From the NCBI RefSeq assembly GCF_014962245.1, contig NZ_CP063144.1, positions 114,582 through 178,581 on the forward strand: DNA of 64,000 nt, in the 5' to 3' direction. The position numbers and the translations under genes were made by a program. This document shows, in pieces, positions 2,260 through 11,741 of this stretch (its first letter is position 1; the number at the start of each line of letters is the position of its first letter). The notes beneath the pieces are model-generated. The model was not told the origin of the DNA, did not search any database, and was given only the letters and a program-made list of their open reading frames with translations. The DNA is from Thermosphaera aggregans. GTDB taxonomy: Archaea > Thermoproteota > Thermoprotei_A > Sulfolobales > Desulfurococcaceae.

Positions 2260-2922
2260 ATGGCTAGAAGCGTCTACCACTATATTGCGGAGCTTTGGAA
2301 GAAGCCTTACGAGGGAGACATGAAGGAGTTGATGAGGCAGAGGCTGATAGAGTGGAGGCGGCAGCCCTCGGTGGTGAGGGTTGAATCCCCGACAAGGCTT
2401 GACAGGGCCAGGGAGCTTGGCTACAAGGCTAAGCCGGGCTTCGTAATCGCAAGGGTAAGGGTTAGGAAGGGAGGTCAGAGAAAGCCGAGGCCTGACAGCG
2501 GTAGAAGGCCGAAGAGAATGGGTGTTTACGGGTACGCCCCGGCGAAGAGTATAAGGCTGATAGCTGAGGAAAGGGCTGCCCGGAAATTCCCCGGTCTCGA
2601 AGTCCTGAACAGCTACTACGTGGGCGAGGACGGCAGGTACAAGTGGTATGAGGTAATACTGGTGGATCCACACCACCCGGCAATATGCAGCGACCCGGAG
2701 ATTAAGTGGATATGTGAGCCGCAGAACAGGGGCAGGGTTTTCAGAGGCTTAACCAGTGCTGGGAAGAAGATGAGAGGGTTGAGGAAGAGCCGCGGGATCA
2801 GCGGCACAACCAACTACAAGTGGAAGAGGAAGCAGAAGGAGAGGTTGCTGAAGAAGAGGCATGAGGCTAGCAGGGGAGCACGCGATCCATGGCAGGTAGC
2901 AGAGAGGATAAACGAAGAGTAG
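2260..2922 (+). CDS. rpl15e: 50S ribosomal protein L15e
   Basis: Structural protein of the large ribosomal subunit found only in archaea and eukaryotes. The 220-residue product starts [19 protein letters not shown] and contains the family signature [20 protein letters not shown] and the basic C-terminal region [19 protein letters not shown]. It is slightly longer than many archaeal L15e proteins because of a basic tail ending in [13 protein letters not shown]. The gene heads an apparent operon with the RNA-binding protein at 2889 and the two RNase P protein genes, linking ribosome structure to RNA processing. A GGTGCTTAA stretch lies just before the ATG. Confidence 0.96.
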
Positions 2923-3406: not shown

Positions 3407-4009
3407 ATGTTCACAGACTTAAACGTTAAAGACTGTAGTAGCGAGCTCCTGGAGAAGGCTGCTGCACTAGGCTACTCCGCGCTCGCCTGCTGGGAGAACC
3501 CTGACGGTGGCGGAGGGGTAAGGGTTGTGGGGAAGAAAGTGCTCTCTCCCAGGAGCCTCGAGGAGTTGAAGCAGGCACTGGCTAAAATCCCTGTTGGTAA
3601 AACCGTGGTGTCGGTCTCCCCACGGGACACTGCGACGGCGAGGTGGAGTGCTCACGATGGAAGAGTTGACACCATAGTTATGACTCTCGAGAACATTGAC
3701 GTGTTCGATAAGAAGCAGTTCTCCACGATGAAGTACTATGGGAAGCCCCTTGAGATCTGGCTGAGCGATCTGAGAAGGGCTGGCAGCGTGCACCTGGCCA
3801 AGTATTATAGGAGGGTGAACCTTGCTTTAAGGATGAAGATCCCGGTTGTAACCGGCTCAGGGGCTTCGGACTGGAGCCAGCTACCCCATCCCAGGGCCGC
3901 AGTATACTTTCTAACACTCCTCCTGGACTTCCCGGAGAAGGAAGCACTCCTCTCCCTGACCAGCCACCCTTACTCGGTGATCGCGGGGAAGGTGGGCTCC
4001 AGTGGCTGA
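3407..4009 (+). CDS. rnp3: RNase P protein component 3 (Rpp30 family)
   Basis: Protein subunit of RNase P, which removes 5' leaders from pre-tRNA. The 200 residues follow the Rpp30/TIM-barrel pattern: start MFTDLNVKDCS, central LEIWLSDLRRAG and RRVNLALRMKIPVVTGSGASD, end HPYSVIAGKVG. The length (200) is a little short of the family norm near 210-220. The stop overlaps the start of the Pop5 gene by 8 bases (4002-4009), so the two subunits, which form a heterotetramer in other archaea, are translationally coupled. A TATA-like TTAATTG lies at about 3370 in the 50-base gap upstream. Confidence 0.9.
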   Translation: MFTDLNVKDCSSELLEKAAALGYSALACWENPDGGGGVRVVGKKVLSPRSLEELKQALAKIPVGKTVVSVSPRDTATARWSAHDGRVDTIVMTLENIDVFDKKQFSTMKYYGKPLEIWLSDLRRAGSVHLAKYYRRVNLALRMKIPVVTGSGASDWSQLPHPRAAVYFLTLLLDFPEKEALLSLTSHPYSVIAGKVGSSG

Positions 4010-4466
4010 CCAGCTCGCAGCAATCCTCATGGTACTGGTTGTAGTACAGGCCGTTGTGCTCGCGGCCACAGTGTATTTTCTTAGAAAGGTTAGAAGAGTG
4101 CTGAGGGTTTGGAAAACCCTGGTTGAGAAGGAGCGGGGCAAGCCTTCGAAGCCTAGGAAGAGGTACGTGGTTTTCACGCTAGCGTGCAATGGGAACCCTT
4201 CTAGAGAAGTGATTGAGAAGCATGTTGAAAACGCTTTCACCACCTACTACGGGAAGGCAGTACTCGCCAAGGCATCCCCCCAGCTCATATTCATGGATGA
4301 GGCGGTGAGGAAAGGTGTTTACAGGGTTAGCCACCTGTACGTTAAACACTTGATCAGCTTGTTCACAATCCCGCTGGAAACCGAGGAGTGCAAATGCCTC
4401 ATAATACCTTTGAAGACAACAGGAACTCTTAAGAAAGCGTTGAAGATTATCGGTAGAGGGCGGTGA
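4002..4466 (+). CDS. rnp2: RNase P protein component 2 (Pop5 family) with N-terminal membrane helix
   Basis: The C-terminal ~105 residues are a Pop5 domain: RYVVFTLACNG, VENAFTTYYGKAVLAKASPQLI, VYRVSHLYVKHLISL and the near-universal end TGTLKKALKIIG. What is odd is the front. From the GTG at 4002, residues 4-27 are strongly hydrophobic (LAAILMVLVVVQAVVLAATVYF) followed by RKVRR, a positive-inside arrangement that would place Pop5 in the cytoplasm on a membrane anchor. An in-frame GTG at 4098, preceded by AAAGGTT at 4085-4091, would give a conventional 122-residue Pop5, so two forms are possible. The 4002 start overlaps rnp3, which favours the long form. Confidence 0.85.
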   Translation: MADQLAAILMVLVVVQAVVLAATVYFLRKVRRVLRVWKTLVEKERGKPSKPRKRYVVFTLACNGNPSREVIEKHVENAFTTYYGKAVLAKASPQLIFMDEAVRKGVYRVSHLYVKHLISLFTIPLETEECKCLIIPLKTTGTLKKALKIIGRGR

Positions 4467-4470
4467 ACCT

Positions 4471-4478
4471 ATTTAATA
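4471..4478 (+). promoter_or_regulatory. TATA-like box for the C/D box RNA candidate
   Basis: ATTTAATA lies directly after the rnp2 stop, centred about 25 bases before the expected 5' end (near 4499) of the guide RNA candidate. This is the usual archaeal TATA-to-start distance, so the RNA could have its own promoter. Confidence 0.45.
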
Positions 4479-4498
4479 GGCTGTTGAAGAGATCTCTA

Positions 4499-4557
4499 CA
4501 ATAGATGATGACGCCGCTCCAAAATGAGAAGTGATTGCTTCGCGACGATCTGATAAC
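4499..4557 (+). ncRNA. C/D box guide sRNA candidate (dual guide)
   Basis: Non-coding stretch between rnp2 and tRNA-Leu with the full archaeal C/D box layout. C box ATGATGA is at 4505-4511; exactly 12 bases follow (CGCCGCTCCAAA); D' is ATGA at 4524-4527; a 3-base spacer; C' is GTGATTG at 4531-4537; exactly 12 bases follow (CTTCGCGACGAT); D is CTGA at 4550-4553. Both guide regions therefore have the canonical 12-nt spacing. D' and C' deviate from consensus, as internal boxes often do. By the D+5 rule the predicted targets contain AUCGUCGCGAAG (methylated at the fifth base, U) and UUUGGAGCGGCG (fifth base, G). Target molecules were not identified. Confidence 0.7.
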
Positions 4558-4602
4558 CTGTAATGTTTTAAACCCTTGATCACAGATAACTTAATGAAAA
4601 GT

Positions 4603-4687
4603 GCGGGGGTGCCCGAGCTTGGTCAAAGGGGGCGGACTTAAGATCCGCTGGCATAGGCCTGCGTGGGTTCAAATCCCACCCCCCGCA
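4603..4687 (+). tRNA. tRNA-Leu (TAA anticodon)
   Basis: Complete 85-nt class II tRNA. Acceptor GCGGGGG (4603-4609) pairs with CCCCCGC (4680-4686), followed by discriminator A. Anticodon stem GCGGA/TCCGC closes the loop CTTAAGA, giving anticodon TAA for UUA codons. The long variable arm (TGGCATAGGCCTGC) and the T arm GTGGG-TTCAAAT-CCCAC are intact. CCA is not encoded. A TATA-like TGTTTTAAAC is about 35 bases upstream. Confidence 0.97.
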
Positions 4688-4732
4688 CTAATTTACTGGT
4701 GTATTCTTGCTTATGTGTGCTGAATTCATGGG

Positions 4733-4924
4733 GTGGTTAGATTTCCCAATTGGGTAAGTAAAATATCGCGAAAACCAAAAAGAACAATCTTAATGGGCCT
4801 GTCTTTGTTGGTATTTGGTATTGCTGGGACATTAGTAAACATAGTTCTTCAGAGAACTATTGACGTAGTTTTATTTGCAAGCATGGCTTTCCTCGGCATT
4901 ATTGTTCTATTTTTCTATGAATGA
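4733..4924 (+). CDS. Small two-helix membrane protein, unknown
   Basis: 63-residue product from a GTG start. Residues ~19-38 (TILMGLSLLVFGIAGTLVNI) and ~43-62 (IDVVLFASMAFLGIIVLFFY) are two membrane helices; the N-terminus is basic (KISRKPKR), so both ends would face the cytoplasm or the short tail would sit at the membrane. It is AT-rich compared with its neighbours and lies immediately downstream of tRNA-Leu in a patch that also holds a decayed gene. I do not recognise a family. The start is uncertain because no good ribosome binding site precedes 4733. Confidence 0.45.
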   Translation: MVRFPNWVSKISRKPKRTILMGLSLLVFGIAGTLVNIVLQRTIDVVLFASMAFLGIIVLFFYE

Positions 4925-5277
4925 TTAATGCGGAACGCTGATAGGTTGTAAAAGCCTTGAAACACAAATTCTGCCTAGAACATGCCGTGGATCAAGCCAG
5001 TAGCCACGTGAAACCTCAGAAACAAGATAAACACTAAAAGAGTTGCCTTCATCAATAAAAACCACACTGGAGCCTAAACCATTCAAACCCGTTGGGAAAA
5101 CCCTGTAAGCACATAAGATAGAACTATTGACCTATGATTTCTCAGAACATGGAAATACTCAATCCTACGTGGAGCTACAATTTCACTGACGACTAACCCA
5201 ATGTCTATAGGATTTGCACAGTCAGCTGATGAGGTTTTGACCGAGATTCCTTTTGACACAGGTGAACTGAAAGAACG
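4925..5277 (-). pseudogene. Decayed RecA/RadA-like ATPase fragment
   Basis: Two minus-strand open frames join through a frameshift near 5085. The upstream piece (5277 down to 5083) reads SADCANPIDIGLVVSEIVAP ... RNHRSIVLSYVLTGFSQ. The downstream piece (about 5095 down to 4925) reads GLGSSVVFIDEGNSFSVYLV followed by SRGYWLDPRHVLGRICVSRL. VVFIDEGNSF...LDP..VL.RI.V.R is the pattern around the sheet strand after Walker A in RecA/Rad51-type proteins (compare VYIDTENTF...RI in RadA). No Walker A motif or start codon is visible, and the frame is broken, so I read it as a remnant. Family assignment is by pattern only. Confidence 0.5.
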
Positions 5278-5403
5278 TCATAGGTTCAGTATGTAATGCA
5301 TCAAACAACAGCAGATGCTAATTTGAAATCAGTGACCATAAACGACAATGTTGAGGAAGCTTTCAACCTGCCCGGATGAATTTACTGGGAAATTCAGCAC
5401 GAA

Positions 5404-5456
5404 TTCCCCCACACTAGCAGGAAAGGCCTAGCTCTTACTATGCCTAGGTGGGGGAA
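5404..5456 (-). terminator. Inverted repeat 3' of the secreted protein gene
   Basis: TTCCCCCAC at 5404-5412 and GTGGGGGAA at 5448-5456 are perfect 9-base arms, with CTAG repeats inside the 35-base loop. It lies 12 bases past the stop of the minus-strand gene at 5468-6466, so it could form an RNA 3' hairpin. Archaeal termination usually needs only T-runs; GTTTTTTCCC precedes the hairpin in the transcript. Confidence 0.45.
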
Positions 5457-5467
5457 GAGGGAAAAAA

Positions 5468-6466
5468 CTACTTCCTCCTCCTGAGAAGGAAGACCATTGC
5501 GAACGCTGAAACCGCTGTGACGGTAACTACCATTAAGCCTGGCTCCGGGATCGGGTAGTGTGGCGGTGTGGTTGCAAAGTACAAGTCAATGTAGTAGTCG
5601 ACATCTCCATCGCTAACCTCTTCCCAGGTGTTACCCGTTACGTTGGTAATCGCGTCCAGCGCATCGCTTGTGCTCGTTCCCCCTATGTCCCAGAAGCCCC
5701 CTCCATTATTATCAAAGTTCGACCACCCCCTGCCAGTGATAAGGGACACTCTGAGGAAGAAGCTCCCGTCGCTCGGCACCCCGCCTATAGTGTCCCATCT
5801 AACCTTAAACTCTATGGCATTATTGCTCACATTGGTTGCGGCTAGGGAATCCTCATCGGTTTTAAAGCTCCACGAGGAGTTAACGATGTAGAATATTCCA
5901 CCCCAGTTTTCCCGTAACACGTCCGATACAAATGTTCGCCCCTGACCTCGGTATCTTGAGTCGGCCAGGTTTACCACTATCTGGTACTGCCATCTAGCAT
6001 CACTACTAACCTTTGTATCTGAGTCACCGGAGAACCACTCCTCGCCGATGGTTTCCCCATTCCTGTTTATGGCTATGGCGACAATAGTGCCGCCGTCCTC
6101 GCCTATGTAGTTAAAGTCCATGTTGTTAACTATTATCAACCCGTACAGGTAGTTCTCATCGCCTGTCACTCTGAACTGTATCAGATCCACCCTTTTATCT
6201 GGGCTTCCCTGAGAGAAATCTGTTCTCTCATCTCCCAGGGGGTCGCACCATATCCACTGCGGTATCTCGTTGACTGTTTCAAGGTATAGGCCCGGGGCTT
6301 TGCCGGTGCAGTCGAATACTCCCCACTCGACCGGGTCTCCGTCAACGCTTATTGATCCTCCTGATAAACCGGCTAACGGTAGTGCCTTGTCAACCGAGCC
6401 TGCTGATGCTGTGAGTGATACGCTGAGAACTAATAGTGTTATGAAAGCTAGTGCGAGAGATCTCAT
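5468..6466 (-). CDS. Secreted surface protein with PEP-CTERM-like C-terminal anchor
   Basis: 332-residue exported protein. A signal peptide is clear (MRSLALAFITLLVLSVSLTA, cleavage after ASA). The body begins with a carbohydrate-enzyme-accessory type pattern (ISVDGDPVEW, then VDLIQFRVTGDENYLYGLII), similar in style to the glucodextranase-C/CBM9-like domains, and is rich in Asn/Asp/Gly and Trp. The C-terminus is IPEPG (306-310), then a hydrophobic helix, then LLRRRK: the order of a PEP-CTERM/archaeosortase sorting signal. Upstream (minus strand) GAAGGTGGG precedes the ATG and a CTTATATAT box lies about 45 bases away. Its partner enzyme and ligand are unknown; it could equally be a simple C-terminal membrane anchor. 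Confidence 0.7.
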   Translation of the reverse strand: MRSLALAFITLLVLSVSLTASAGSVDKALPLAGLSGGSISVDGDPVEWGVFDCTGKAPGLYLETVNEIPQWIWCDPLGDERTDFSQGSPDKRVDLIQFRVTGDENYLYGLIIVNNMDFNYIGEDGGTIVAIAINRNGETIGEEWFSGDSDTKVSSDARWQYQIVVNLADSRYRGQGRTFVSDVLRENWGGIFYIVNSSWSFKTDEDSLAATNVSNNAIEFKVRWDTIGGVPSDGSFFLRVSLITGRGWSNFDNNGGGFWDIGGTSTSDALDAITNVTGNTWEEVSDGDVDYYIDLYFATTPPHYPIPEPGLMVVTVTAVSAFAMVFLLRRRK

Positions 6467-6630
6467 TAACCCACCTTCACATTCATATATATTATTTGCT
6501 AGTGGATCATATATAAGTATTCGCAGGGTTTAAACGCTTGTTGAAAAACTACTCGCTCTAACCTCCCGTGTTCAAACCTGCTACGCTGGTGCTGTCTAAC
6601 CCCTCACTTCTTTACTATAAGGTTTCCCGC

Positions 6631-6828
6631 TCACTGCTTCCTACGTCCTATTCTGAAGTAGAAGTCGCTTTTCTTCCCCGTAGGGGTTGTGCCGTGGTAG
6701 TGGTTCACTCTTCCATGGCATTTCGGGCATTCAAGCATTTCGACAGTGTACCAGCGCATTCTCCACTGCTTTATCTTGAGGAACTCCCCTTCGAAACCGC
6801 AGTAGGGGCATTTCAAGCCTGATCCCAC
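6631..6828 (-). CDS. Small zinc-ribbon protein
   Basis: 65 residues with two CxxC knuckles, CPYC at 7-10 and CPKC at 34-37, separated by about 24 residues rich in Trp and Met; this is a complete C4 zinc ribbon. The tail (GRVNHYHGTTPTGKKSDFYF) carries His and basic residues. Such small archaeal ribbons bind nucleic acid or protein, but nothing in the sequence decides which. It stands alone between the secreted protein and the SDR gene, all three on the minus strand. Confidence 0.75.
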   Translation of the reverse strand: MGSGLKCPYCGFEGEFLKIKQWRMRWYTVEMLECPKCHGRVNHYHGTTPTGKKSDFYFRIGRRKQ

Positions 6829-6868
6829 TATATATCTCCTGCTCCGGAAATATAATAATTTTTCCCAG

Positions 6869-7768
6869 CTAACGCATAAGCATAGACCTTATCTTCTCGA
6901 GAACAGCCTTATCCTCCCTGGCCTTGTAAGCCAGCTTCACAACCAGCTCGCCAAGCCCTGGGTCTCCGAGAAGGGTTGACAAGCCCTGCTTAATCACCTC
7001 CTCGTCAAGGTAGACCATTCTCGACGACACGCCTCCATCTATCACCACGTTAACCCCTGTCATCCACCCAGCCTCGTCCGATGCTAGGAACGCTACCAGT
7101 GATGCAACATCCTCGGGCTTACCGACTCTCCCGGCAGGATGCCATGCATGGTCGAGCGGGGTGAGGGATGGCTTCCTCGGAGGCACCTGCCACTCACTAG
7201 TGTCTATCCAGCCTGGTGAGACAGCTAGCACTCTGATCCCGTACTTGGCTAGGGAGATGGCTAGCGAGTGTGTAAGAGCTAGCAGGCCGCCCTTCGAGGC
7301 TGAGTACGGCTCGGTGTTAGGCTCTGACTGAAGCGCTCTTGTAGAAGCAATGTTCACTATTACCCCGCCGGTTTTCTTCATGTATTTCACAGCGTGCTTG
7401 CTGCACAGCCACGGGCCTGTAAGGTTCACGTCTATTATTCTCCTCCACTCATCAATGCTCTGCTCTTCAATACTTCTGCCGGTGAACCCTATTCCCGCAT
7501 TGTTTACTAGGACGTTGATCCTGCCGAAATCAGCGTAGACGTTTTCAACCCCGGTTGATACCTCATCCTCTCTTGAAACATCAACCCTGTAGAAGCGTGC
7601 TTCAACCCCTGCCTTAGCGAGCTCTCCAACCCTGTAGACACCGGCCTCCTCGTCAATGTCGAAAACCGCTATGCTGCAGCCTTCAACCCCCAGCCTCCAC
7701 GCTATTGCAGCTCCAATACCTCTCGCGCCGCCTGTTACAATGCATGTTTTCCCTTCAAACCTTTTCAC
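6869..7768 (-). CDS. Short-chain dehydrogenase/reductase (SDR family)
   Basis: NAD(P)-dependent oxidoreductase of 299 residues. TGGARGIG (12-19) is the Rossmann cofactor motif, NNAG follows beta-4, and YSASKGG carries the catalytic Tyr and Lys with an upstream Ser (NIAST). FDIDEE after beta-2 has an acidic residue at the position that favours NAD over NADP (inference). The classical SDR core ends near residue 255 (MTGVNVVIDGG); an extra ~45-residue helical tail (LSTLLGDPGLGELVVKLAYK) is unusual. The substrate is unknown; the family spans glucose, ketoacyl and alcohol dehydrogenases. Confidence 0.85.
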   Translation of the reverse strand: MKRFEGKTCIVTGGARGIGAAIAWRLGVEGCSIAVFDIDEEAGVYRVGELAKAGVEARFYRVDVSREDEVSTGVENVYADFGRINVLVNNAGIGFTGRSIEEQSIDEWRRIIDVNLTGPWLCSKHAVKYMKKTGGVIVNIASTRALQSEPNTEPYSASKGGLLALTHSLAISLAKYGIRVLAVSPGWIDTSEWQVPPRKPSLTPLDHAWHPAGRVGKPEDVASLVAFLASDEAGWMTGVNVVIDGGVSSRMVYLDEEVIKQGLSTLLGDPGLGELVVKLAYKAREDKAVLEKIRSMLMR

Positions 7769-7849
7769 GGAGGACTCCCCCTAGGTATAATTGTGCTCCT
7801 CGCGTGTTTTAAACACGGTTTGAATGCGTGAGAAAAAGTCTTATTATTC

Positions 7850-7860
7850 CCTTTAAATGT
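7850..7860 (+). promoter_or_regulatory. TATA-like box of the proteasome/exosome superoperon
   Basis: CTTTAAATG sits about 30-40 bases before the psmA ATG at 7890, after a 70-base gap from the divergent SDR gene. It is the best TATA candidate ahead of the ten-gene cluster that starts with psmA. Confidence 0.4.
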
Positions 7861-7889
7861 AGTTTTTACCTAAAAGAGGGTTGATTGAT

Positions 7890-8642
7890 ATGGGTCTTTC
7901 AATGGCTGCTGCTTATGACAGGGCTATCACCATATTCTCGCCTGACGGCAGGATCTACCAGGTTGAGTATGCTTTCGAAGCGGTTAGAAGAGGCTGGACC
8001 ACCCTAGGCGTTAGAACGAAGAACGCAGCCGTGGTGGTTGCTGAGAAGCAGAAGATCTCGCCTTTAACCGATGAGAAGGCTATTCAGAAAGTGTTTAAAG
8101 TAGACGATCACATCGGGGTAAGCTTCGCCGGCATGGCCGGTGATGGCAGGATCCTGATAGACTACGCTATTCACCAAGCCTTGATACACAAGTTCTACTA
8201 TGATGAGCCAATCCCAGTGGAGTATTTGACGAAGCTGGTGTGCCATGTGAAGCAGGCTTACACCCAGCACGCGGGCGTGAGACCATTCGGCGTCTCAATG
8301 ATATTCGTAGGCGTGGATGAAAAGGGTACCCAGTTATTCATGACGGAGCCGAGCGGTAGGTACCTCAGCTACTACGGTGTTGCAATAGGTGAGAAAAGCG
8401 GTAACGTCACGGAGTTCCTCGAGAAAAACTACAGCTACGACCTCAGCGCCAGGGAAACGATTAAGCTGGGGATTCTCGCAATAGCCTCCATAGTGGAGAG
8501 CAGGCCTCTCCAAGACTATATTGAAGCCGGCTACATAGATGTTGAGACGAAGCAGTTCAGGATCATGGGGAAGAGCGAGATAGAGGAGCTTCTCGCAGAG
8601 CTTGAGAAGGAAGGCCGTCTCAAACAGGAGGGTAGGAAGTAG
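7890..8642 (+). CDS. psmA: Proteasome subunit alpha
   Basis: Alpha subunit of the 20S proteasome, forming the outer gating rings. The product from the ATG at 7890 begins MGLSMAAAYDRAITIFSPDG and contains the alpha-type signature RIYQVEYAFEAVRRG. The catalytic Thr of beta subunits is absent, as expected. A GAGGG Shine-Dalgarno at 7876-7880 supports 7890 rather than the TTG at 7881. The charged tail (AELEKEGRLKQEGRK) fits the family. It is the first gene of the archaeal superoperon coupling the proteasome to RNA exosome and ribosome maturation genes. Confidence 0.97.
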   Translation: MGLSMAAAYDRAITIFSPDGRIYQVEYAFEAVRRGWTTLGVRTKNAAVVVAEKQKISPLTDEKAIQKVFKVDDHIGVSFAGMAGDGRILIDYAIHQALIHKFYYDEPIPVEYLTKLVCHVKQAYTQHAGVRPFGVSMIFVGVDEKGTQLFMTEPSGRYLSYYGVAIGEKSGNVTEFLEKNYSYDLSARETIKLGILAIASIVESRPLQDYIEAGYIDVETKQFRIMGKSEIEELLAELEKEGRLKQEGRK

Positions 8643-8699: not shown

Positions 8700-9413
8700 A
8701 TGGTGGTTTTTGTGAAGGATAAGCTGGTAGTAGCCAAGTATGAGGCTAAGGGGCACAGGTTTGAAATCCTCGTCGACCCCGACCTAGCCCTCAAGGTGAA
8801 GGAGGGGAAGCCGGTCAGCATTGACGAAGTTGTAGCAGGAGACTTCATATATAAGGATGCGAGGAAGGGTTTGAAAGCCTCGCCAGAATCCTTGAAGGCT
8901 GTGTTCGGCACTGACGATCCTAGAGTTGTCGCTATGGAGATTATTAAGAAGGGGGAGCTGCAGTTCACGGCTGAGCAGAGGAGGAAGCTGCTGGAGGATA
9001 AGAAAAACCAGATCGTGAACTTGATAGCGAAGAACGCCGTCGACCCTAAGACAAAGCTCCCCATTCCTGCGAAAAGGATTGAGCTGGCGATGGAGCAGGC
9101 AAGGGTTACGATAGACCCTTACAAGCCTGCTGAGCAGCAGGTTGAGGAGATTGTGTCCAAGATAGCCAGGTTCATACCTATAAAGCTTGCTAAAGCATAT
9201 GTATCGGTTAAAATACCCGCTGAGTATGCTAGCAAGGCATATAAGTCTGTGCAGTCACTCGGGGTTGTGAAGAAGTCTAACTGGGGGAGTGATGGAAGCG
9301 TGAGCGTGGAGCTTGAAATACCTGCCGGTATGCAGCAGGAGTTTATAGATAAGGTGAACGCGTTAACCAAGGGTAGTGCTGAAATAAAGATTGTGAGCGT
9401 GGGGGAGAAATGA
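8700..9413 (+). CDS. sdo1: Ribosome maturation protein SBDS/Sdo1
   Basis: Archaeal orthologue of SBDS, which helps release the anti-association factor from the large ribosomal subunit in eukaryotes. The 237 residues show the N-terminal FYSH domain (KYEAKGHRFEILVDPDLAL), the central three-helix domain (QFTAEQRRKLLEDKKNQIVN, then IPAKRIELAMEQARV) and the ferredoxin-like C-terminal domain (WGSDGSVSVELEIPAG). The ATG at 8700 was chosen because it reads straight into MVVFVKDKLVVAKYEAKG. The stop overlaps the rrp4 start in an ATGA arrangement (9410-9413), so the two are translationally coupled. Confidence 0.95.
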   Translation: MVVFVKDKLVVAKYEAKGHRFEILVDPDLALKVKEGKPVSIDEVVAGDFIYKDARKGLKASPESLKAVFGTDDPRVVAMEIIKKGELQFTAEQRRKLLEDKKNQIVNLIAKNAVDPKTKLPIPAKRIELAMEQARVTIDPYKPAEQQVEEIVSKIARFIPIKLAKAYVSVKIPAEYASKAYKSVQSLGVVKKSNWGSDGSVSVELEIPAGMQQEFIDKVNALTKGSAEIKIVSVGEK

Positions 9414-10156
9414 AGCTCAGGGTAATCGTGGCTGACAGGCAACTGGTCAGGCCCGGGGATACTTTAGCATATATTGAGGAAGCCGGCGAGCTTATCAAGT
9501 TCAAGAAGATCCCTGATAAGCACGTGTACATTTTCGAGAACAAGATCATAAGCGACGTAGTGGGGGTTGTCAGCGTTAACGGTGAGGAAATACAGGTGAT
9601 ACCGCTAGAGGGTGTCTACATCCCTCGGAGAGACGACCTCGTGATAGGTATTGTTGAAAACGTTGGCGTGACAGCGTGGACCCTGGACATAAGAAGCCCC
9701 TACCCGGGCGTGCTGAACGCTGGCGAGGTAATAGAGGGCTTCAACCCTCTAACCCACAACCTGAGAAACTATCTCGACATAGGTGATTTCGTCATAGGGA
9801 AGATAGCGGTGTTTGACAGGACCAGGGACCCTGTAATAACCGTGAAGGGTAAGGGGTTGGGGAAGATAACCGAGGGAGTAGTGGTCGATGTGAAGCCTAG
9901 CAAGGTTCCAAGGCTTATCGGGAAGAAAGGCAGCATGTACAACTTGCTGACAAGCATGAGCGGGTGCGAGATAACCATAGCCCAGAACGGCTTCGTATGG
10001 CTTAAATGCCCTGATGAAAACAGGGCTAAGGTTTTAATACAGGCTATAAAGCTTATTGAGTTAAAAGCCCACATGCGTGGTTTAACAGAGGAGGTTAAAA
10101 TGTTTCTGGAGAGAAAGCTTGGCGGAGGTGTTGGAAGCAGTGAGCAGCAAGCCTAG
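9410..10156 (+). CDS. rrp4: Exosome RNA-binding subunit Rrp4
   Basis: Cap subunit of the archaeal RNA exosome, which binds substrate RNA and feeds it to the Rrp41/Rrp42 ring. Domain order over 248 residues: N-terminal domain (RPGDTLAY...[15 protein letters not shown]), S1 domain ([20 protein letters not shown]...GDFVIGKIA), KH domain ([14 protein letters not shown] with the GxxG-type loop). A short Gly/Ser tail overlaps the start of rrp41. This is a standard arrangement in archaeal exosome operons. Confidence 0.96.
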
Positions 10157-10871
10157 GTTGCTCAGGGAGGATGGCACGAGGCTGGATGGTAGGCGGCTGG
10201 ACGAGCTGCGGCCCGTGAAGATCAGGGTAGGGGTTTTGAAGAACGCTAACGGAAGCGCTCTCGTCGAGTACGGGGGGACTAAGGTGCTGGCAGCGGTCTT
10301 TGGCCCGAGGGAGGCTTTGCCGAGGCATATAGCTCTGCCGGATAGGGCAACGCTGAGGGTTAGATACCACATGGCCCCGTTCTCCACGAGCGAGAGGAAG
10401 TCGCCAGCTCCCTCAAGGAGGGAGATAGAGCTCTCCAAGGTTATCAGGGAGGCTCTCGAATCAGTTGTCTTCTCGGAGCAGTTCCCGAGAACATCTATCG
10501 ACATATTCATTGAGGTTTTACAAGCAGACGGAGGCACCAGGACCGCGGGGTTGACCGCTGCCTCAATAGCTCTAGCAGATGCCGGCATACCTATGAAGGA
10601 CCTGGTAATAGGTGTTGCGGTCGGGAAGATTGAGGGAAGCCTTGCACTAGATATCAACGAGCTCGAGGACGAGTATGGCGAGGCAGACCTGCCCGTTGGG
10701 ATAGCCCCGAATATTGGGGAAATCCTGCTTCTCCAGCTGAACGGTGTCTTAACACCCGAGGAGCTTAAAGCAGGGATCGAGCTTGCGTGGAGAGGTGTTG
10801 AATCCATTTACAAGGTTGCTAAGGAAGCCCTCTACGCTAAGTACATTAAGGCTTTCGAGGAGGTGAAGTAG
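10140..10871 (+). CDS. rrp41: Exosome exonuclease subunit Rrp41
   Basis: Catalytic RNase PH-fold subunit of the exosome; it degrades RNA phosphorolytically from the 3' end. Family features: [19 protein letters not shown] at the start, [39 protein letters not shown] (RNA/phosphate binding) and the catalytic loop [13 protein letters not shown] with the conserved Asp. I place the start at GTG 10140 because GGAGGTG at 10123-10129 is correctly spaced for it; in-frame TTG at 10119 would overlap rrp4 further. It overlaps the end of rrp4 by 17 bases. Confidence 0.95.
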
Positions 10872-11741
10872 GTGAGCATTACACCTGTTAAGGAACCGGT
10901 CCTGCCTAAAGCCCAGGCAGAGGCCATTATCAAGCTGTTGAGGAAGGGGGAGAGGATTGACGGCAGGGGTCTCCTAGACTACAGACCCATCAGCGTCTAC
11001 TTAAACCCGATCGAGAAGGCGGATGGAAGCTCCCACGTCATACTGGGGACGACACAGGTGATAACCGGTGTGAAAATAGAGCTTGGAGAACCCTTCGCCG
11101 ACAGGCCTGATGAAGGAGTTCTACAGGTTCACGCCGAGTTTGTCCCACTGGCGTCGCAGACTTTTGAACCGGGGCCGCCGGATGAGAACTCTATTGAAGT
11201 AGCCAGGGTGGTTGACAGGAGCCTGCGCGAGCCTAAGGCAATAGATTTCAAACAGCTGGTTGTAGCTCCCGGGAAGAAGGTATGGGTAGTGTTCAACGAC
11301 ATATACCTTATAGACCATGGAGGAAACATTGTTGACGCCAGCATGCTGTCCAGCATGCTAGCGCTCGCCACGGCTAAAATACCCTACTACGAGGAGAAGG
11401 AACCAGGGGTTTACGTAGTAGATAATAAGAGGCATGTGTCCTCTCTACCCGTGAACACGCTGGTGGCTACGGTGACAATGGGGGTTCACGAGGACATCAT
11501 AGTTGTTGATCCCTCAATAGAGGAGGAAGTGGTGTTAAACACCTTCCTAACCATAGCTGTTGACGAGAAGGGCAGGGTGTGCGGGATACAGAAGAAAGGT
11601 ATTGCAGGAATCAGCAGGAAGACCCTGGAGCAGGCTGTTGAGATAGCCCTTAAACAGGGAGGCTTCCTTATAGATTTAATAAGGAAAATATTAAATAATC
11701 CCAGTGACTACATGAAACCGTTAGAAACCAACCAGTATTAA
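10872..11741 (+). CDS. rrp42: Exosome subunit Rrp42
   Basis: Non-catalytic RNase PH-fold partner that alternates with Rrp41 in the hexameric exosome ring. The 289 residues include RIDGRGLLDYRPISVYLNPI, GTTQVITGVKIELGEPFADR and a C-terminal GIAGISRKTLEQAVEIALKQ. The GTG start follows the rrp41 stop directly, with GAGGAGGTGAAG as Shine-Dalgarno inside the end of rrp41. No catalytic DLPV-like loop is present, in keeping with its role as scaffold and RNA-binding partner. Confidence 0.95.
   Translation: MSITPVKEPVLPKAQAEAIIKLLRKGERIDGRGLLDYRPISVYLNPIEKADGSSHVILGTTQVITGVKIELGEPFADRPDEGVLQVHAEFVPLASQTFEPGPPDENSIEVARVVDRSLREPKAIDFKQLVVAPGKKVWVVFNDIYLIDHGGNIVDASMLSSMLALATAKIPYYEEKEPGVYVVDNKRHVSSLPVNTLVATVTMGVHEDIIVVDPSIEEEVVLNTFLTIAVDEKGRVCGIQKKGIAGISRKTLEQAVEIALKQGGFLIDLIRKILNNPSDYMKPLETNQY

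Follow-up and report, generated by a model that had tools for sequence, protein, structure and literature searches.

Pop5, a protein subunit of the ribozyme RNase P, carries in Thermosphaera aggregans a predicted transmembrane helix at its N-terminus, and the same architecture extends over nearly all examined members of the archaeal class to which this organism belongs. Judging from the sequences compared here, this helix probably serves as a signal anchor that keeps the entire RNase P at the cytoplasmic side of the membrane. RNase P, which trims tRNAs and is of ancient origin, is one of the most thoroughly studied RNA enzymes, and it is regarded as either soluble or nuclear; we know of no RNase P subunit endowed with a membrane anchor of its own. 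The searchable literature contains no report of an archaeal Pop5 or RNase P with a membrane or transmembrane feature, and a protein that passes the Pop5 family tests while displaying an order-wide, predicted membrane helix goes unmentioned there. The words 'membrane' and 'extension' are absent from the main text of a study that compared the RNase P proteins of archaea (PMC4919917).

The Pop5 protein of Thermosphaera aggregans

In the window, that is, the whole stretch of 64,000 nucleotides that was analysed, pop5 (rnp2) occupies positions 4002..4466 of the forward strand, on which rnp3, the upstream L15e and PAB1135-like genes and the downstream genes from psmA to Rrp42 are also located. The open reading frame starts with GTG and encodes 154 aa, beginning VADQLAAILMVLVVVQAVVLAATVYFLRKVRRVLRVWKTLVEKERGKPSKPRKRYVVF..., and was identified through PF01900 and Foldseek. 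Its product consists of a hydrophobic helix (residues 4-27, QLAAILMVLVVVQAVVLAATVYFL; 4011..4082), the best 19-mer of which has a KD value of 2.74 and zero charged residues; a basic extension of this helix followed by a flexible linker (residues 28-52, RKVRRVLRVWK...KPSKPRK; 4083..4157), as judged from the sequence and the AlphaFold model; and an RRM-like Pop5 domain (residues 53-152; 4158..4457) delineated by Pfam, alignments, AlphaFold and Foldseek. The initial annotation had described this open reading frame as a GTG-initiated protein with hydrophobic residues 4-27, the motif RKVRR and a complete Pop5 domain, its start overlapping rnp3; the sequence and Pfam confirm this description, and the overlap amounts to 8 nt.

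By the Pfam family test and by its predicted fold, the product can be assigned to Pop5. The Rpp14/Pop5 family (PF01900) matches residues 54-148 with 42.1 bits against a cut-off of 23. The hit to PRK03717.1, the NCBIfam equivalog for RNase P component 2, has an E-value of 1.1e-8, but its 35 bits fall short of the cut-off of 195; this model, apparently, fits closer relatives only. Alignment places the conserved Pop5 residues at R54, Y55, G84, R108, T140 (Ser to Thr), G141 and T142, the reported positions being R17, Y18, G47, R71, S103, G104 and T105 in Pho numbering (PMC4919917); thus, R17, Y18, G47, R71, G104 and T105 are kept, and the gene adjoins rpp30, as do other archaeal pop5 genes.

The AlphaFold model, built with 19 aligned sequences, has a mean pLDDT of 91 and displays a continuous helix at residues 2-43, the flexible linker and the Pop5 fold, in this order, with pLDDT dropping to ~63 at residues 41-50. 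The best PDB matches found by Foldseek are the archaeal Pop5/Rnp2 structures 2czv and 2av5 (Pyrococcus), 3wz0 and 6k0a (Methanocaldococcus), all with a probability of 1.00, so that archaeal Pop5 proteins are the nearest solved relatives both by sequence and by fold. Whereas the solved proteins comprise about 120 soluble residues, the predicted transmembrane helix and linker add about 50 residues in front of the domain. Searches across the family and the order indicate that pop5 is present in a single copy in this genome. A second, soluble Pop5 encoded elsewhere in the same genome was considered and rejected; G037, the only genome of the order with two hits, is represented by a fragmented assembly that contains 7% contamination.

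Distribution of the helix among archaea

To gauge the spread of the helix, genomes were grouped by the GTDB order and class of their source, and in almost all genera of the order the DNA ahead of a single pop5 gene was read. Pop5 was found in 34 of the 40 genomes of the family, and in 30/30 of the loci read, the Pop5 domain has a hydrophobic stretch in front of it. In the main set, 77 of 79 genomes of the order and class encode the N-terminal helix; 11 and then 2 further genomes bring the tally to 90/92 and include all 11 families of the order along with three sister families of the class. Among the helix-bearing genomes are ones that we take to be Sulfolobus acidocaldarius, Ignicoccus hospitalis, Pyrolobus fumarii and Acidilobus saccharovorans, in addition to Thermosphaera aggregans itself. 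The comparison with close relatives that had been suggested at the outset, therefore, revealed conservation of the hydrophobic stretch, and the predicted membrane-bound Pop5, first put forward for a single gene, is supported on a far wider scale than proposed.

Of about 38 archaeal Pop5 genes from outside the class, none encodes the helix; these comprised sets of 11, 5 and 12, nine loci of the Altiarchaeota/Euryarchaeota type and one Thermoproteaceae-like gene, the last of which gave no match in the sequence search and was recognized by its location behind rpp30. The helix is, therefore, a hallmark of a single class. The sole exceptions among the 92 genomes, L071 and L072 (L189, L190), belong to one genus, in which Pop5 begins 9-12 codons ahead of the domain, and a sister genus retains the helix. 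The anchored Pop5 probably originated once, in the ancestor of the class, and was later lost in this genus. The stretch between the helix and the Pop5 domain ranges from ~20 to 60 residues in L096-L099 and L112-L113, and in family f8 it looks helical or coiled-coil-like.

Hydrophobicity, orientation and selection

The 19-mer KD value of the helix has a median of 2.58 and a minimum of 1.65 (n=77), the lowest value anywhere being 1.44 (G108, from the later set), and the 19-residue cores contain zero or one charged residue. On average, 5.3 lysines and arginines are found in the 20 residues after the helix versus 0.5 in the 12 residues before it (n=77), and the excess lies on the Pop5 side in 75/77 proteins; by the positive-inside rule, the Pop5 domain is therefore predicted to be cytoplasmic. 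Pop5, thus, has the sequence hallmarks of a single-pass signal-anchor (N-out, C-in) membrane protein. Pop5 is predicted to carry two N-terminal helices rather than one in the three sister families (L114, L115, L116, L159, L160, L167). The second helix is added in front and the basic linker still directly precedes the domain, which would therefore remain on the same, positive side.

The N-terminal region also shows the marks of selection. Comparison of synonymous and non-synonymous changes, as proposed in the initial annotation, yielded dN/dS well below 1: in close pairs with a measurable value, two pairs being saturated at synonymous sites, it is 0.09-0.41 for the N-terminal codons and 0.03-0.20 for the Pop5 domain, indicating that the N-terminal codons are under purifying selection. 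Over ten pairs, not all of them independent, 89 replacements were counted in the 19-residue core of the helix, and 0 of these were to D/E/K/R/N/Q/H/P, whereas 31% would be expected from random nonsynonymous changes. Such turnover of residues with hydrophobicity retained is the evolutionary mode of membrane helices, to which the predicted helix conforms. A frame that is hydrophobic by chance is ruled out by the low dN/dS and the 0/89 strongly polar replacements.

The helix might, in principle, be translated and still not anchor the mature enzyme, either because it is cleaved off, for instance after insertion, or because it remains cytoplasmic and packs onto another protein. We regard this as very unlikely: the Pop5 proteins of other archaea are, indeed, soluble, but the uncharged cores, the exclusively non-polar turnover and the positive-inside pattern are the features expected under selection for membrane insertion, the sister families have added a second helix, and no conserved cleavage motif is discernible by eye in the alignments.

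Choice of the start codon

The GTG at 4002 is preceded by a Shine-Dalgarno motif, AGGTGG (3990..3995), with a duplex energy of -7.4 kcal/mol, as against -3.8 kcal/mol for the in-frame GTG at 4098..4100. These energies were calculated with the conserved archaeal 16S tail AUCACCUCAU, an assumed tail that may differ from that of this genome. The same preference holds across the genomes compared: for starts before the helix, the median duplex energy is -6.75, with -5 kcal/mol or better in 68/74, versus -3.35 and 16/70, respectively, for the best internal start. In L073, L078 and L106, there is no standard in-frame start (ATG/GTG/TTG) ahead of the helix, and a strong Shine-Dalgarno motif at the expected place precedes ATA (L073) or CTG (L078, L106); these are, therefore, likely non-canonical start codons. 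It is hardly credible that the start has been mis-called, with translation yielding only a standard soluble Pop5 and leaving out the codons upstream. Although the Pop5 domain by itself would fit the usual 120-residue protein, the upstream frame is open, under purifying selection and hydrophobic throughout the order, and the strongest Shine-Dalgarno motif stands ahead of the helix. The long form is, on this sequence evidence, the conserved Pop5 product.

The initial annotation had also raised the possibility of a dual form, in which the same mRNA would yield a membrane Pop5 from GTG 4002 and a soluble Pop5 from GTG 4098 and, hence, two pools of RNase P. The sequence AAAGGTT does precede GTG 4098, as had been noted, this GTG is also present in the nearest relative, L002, and the 16/70 genomes with a reasonable internal Shine-Dalgarno motif could be viewed in the same light. 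Nevertheless, we find the dual form unlikely and reject it as a conserved mechanism: the motif at 4098 is weak, internal starts occur at differing places in different relatives, with GTG 4098 not conserved across the order, and seven genomes, including one that we take to be S. acidocaldarius, have no ATG, GTG or TTG at all between the helix and the domain. In the source species, a minor short form may conceivably be made from GTG 4098.

Pop5 as the candidate anchor of RNase P

The T. aggregans genome encodes a set of RNase P components into which the long, putatively anchored Pop5 could be incorporated, namely, the RNase P RNA (RF00373, 177 bits), Rpp21 (67 bits), Rpp29 (77 bits) and Rpp30. 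The last of these, encoded by rnp3 (3407..4009), is divergent and weakly recognized by family models (NCBIfam RNaseP3Mthb, 1.8e-5), yet it resides at the conserved position beside pop5, where PF01876 matches in relatives. Rpp30 of the window has no hydrophobic segment (maximum KD 1.05), and none was detected among the Rpp29 and Rpp21 sequences from up to 16 genomes, nor in Rpp30 where examined. Likewise, in the genus with a helix-less Pop5, none of the other subunits examined (Rpp29, Rpp21 and Rpp30) has gained a hydrophobic segment. An anchor on one of these subunits can, thus, be discounted, and Pop5 is the sole candidate.

We propose that Pop5 is held by its single N-terminal signal-anchor helix with the N-terminus outside and the C-terminus inside. 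The helix would enter the cytoplasmic membrane, most likely during translation, and the basic linker of about 25 residues would keep the Pop5 domain at the cytoplasmic face. Through this domain, Rpp30, the RNase P RNA and the other subunits would also be retained at the membrane. We infer that RNA-binding residues would be placed directly beneath the membrane and that each holoenzyme would have as many as two anchors, two being expected if the enzyme is dimeric like that of Methanocaldococcus.

Among bacterial RNases, RNase Y is anchored at the membrane and RNase E is attached to it by an amphipathic helix. The parallel is that a short N-terminal or internal segment binds an RNA-processing enzyme to the cytoplasmic face; by contrast, these are unrelated proteins and enzymes, and the predicted anchor described here belongs to a ribozyme, being located on one of its protein subunits. 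A point against the anchor is that Sulfolobus RNase P has reportedly been purified by classical biochemistry, for which an anchored enzyme would have required detergent or a released form. In the 1990s, the S. solfataricus enzyme is said to have shown an unusually low, protein-like buoyant density, a property that might stem from bound lipid or detergent. The loss of the helix in one genus shows that RNase P does not universally depend on the anchor; the same genus offers a natural control. The retention of the predicted anchor across the order, including the genetically tractable Sulfolobales, makes the proposal directly testable.

Gene neighbourhood and the exosome

Upstream of pop5, the window contains the genes for ribosomal protein L15e (2260..2922) and a PAB1135-like RNA-binding protein (PF01877; 2889..3356). 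Downstream are the genes for the proteasome alpha subunit (psmA; 7881..8642), an SBDS homologue (8700..9413), exosome Rrp4 (9410..10156) and two RNase PH-type exosome subunits, named by gene order Rrp41 (10119..10871) and Rrp42 (10872..11741). This cluster of RNase P and exosome genes is interrupted at 4467-7880 by tRNA-Leu along with other genes spanning about 3.4 kb. In the genome that we take to be S. acidocaldarius, psmA, SBDS and rrp4 come immediately after pop5, the genes being named by their likeness to those of the window.

The exosome of Sulfolobus solfataricus is reported to be membrane-localised (Roppelt 2010, FEBS Lett 584:2791, cited in PMC7613921). It represents membrane RNA-processing machinery from the same order, and exosome genes follow pop5 in one cluster; however, the exosome would need another route to the membrane, and its association with RNase P is hypothetical. 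The function of the anchor could be to concentrate tRNA maturation close to the membrane-localised exosome, and an RNase P at the membrane would be in keeping with a membrane site of RNA processing. If so, 5' tRNA maturation would sit at the membrane, in cells whose exosome has been reported there too. A more far-reaching possibility, which we put forward only tentatively and regard as somewhat doubtful, is that an order-wide, permanently membrane-bound RNase P and the membrane exosome of the same cluster form a centre of RNA processing and decay, an archaeal counterpart of the bacterial degradosome.

The interval between pop5 and psmA contains a small membrane ORF (4733-4924) with a weak match to DUF7860. 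On the reverse strand, 5468-6466 encodes a secreted protein without a Pfam match, the end of which, PIPEPGLMVVTVTAVSAFAMVFLLRRRK, resembles an archaeosortase-type C-terminal sorting tail.
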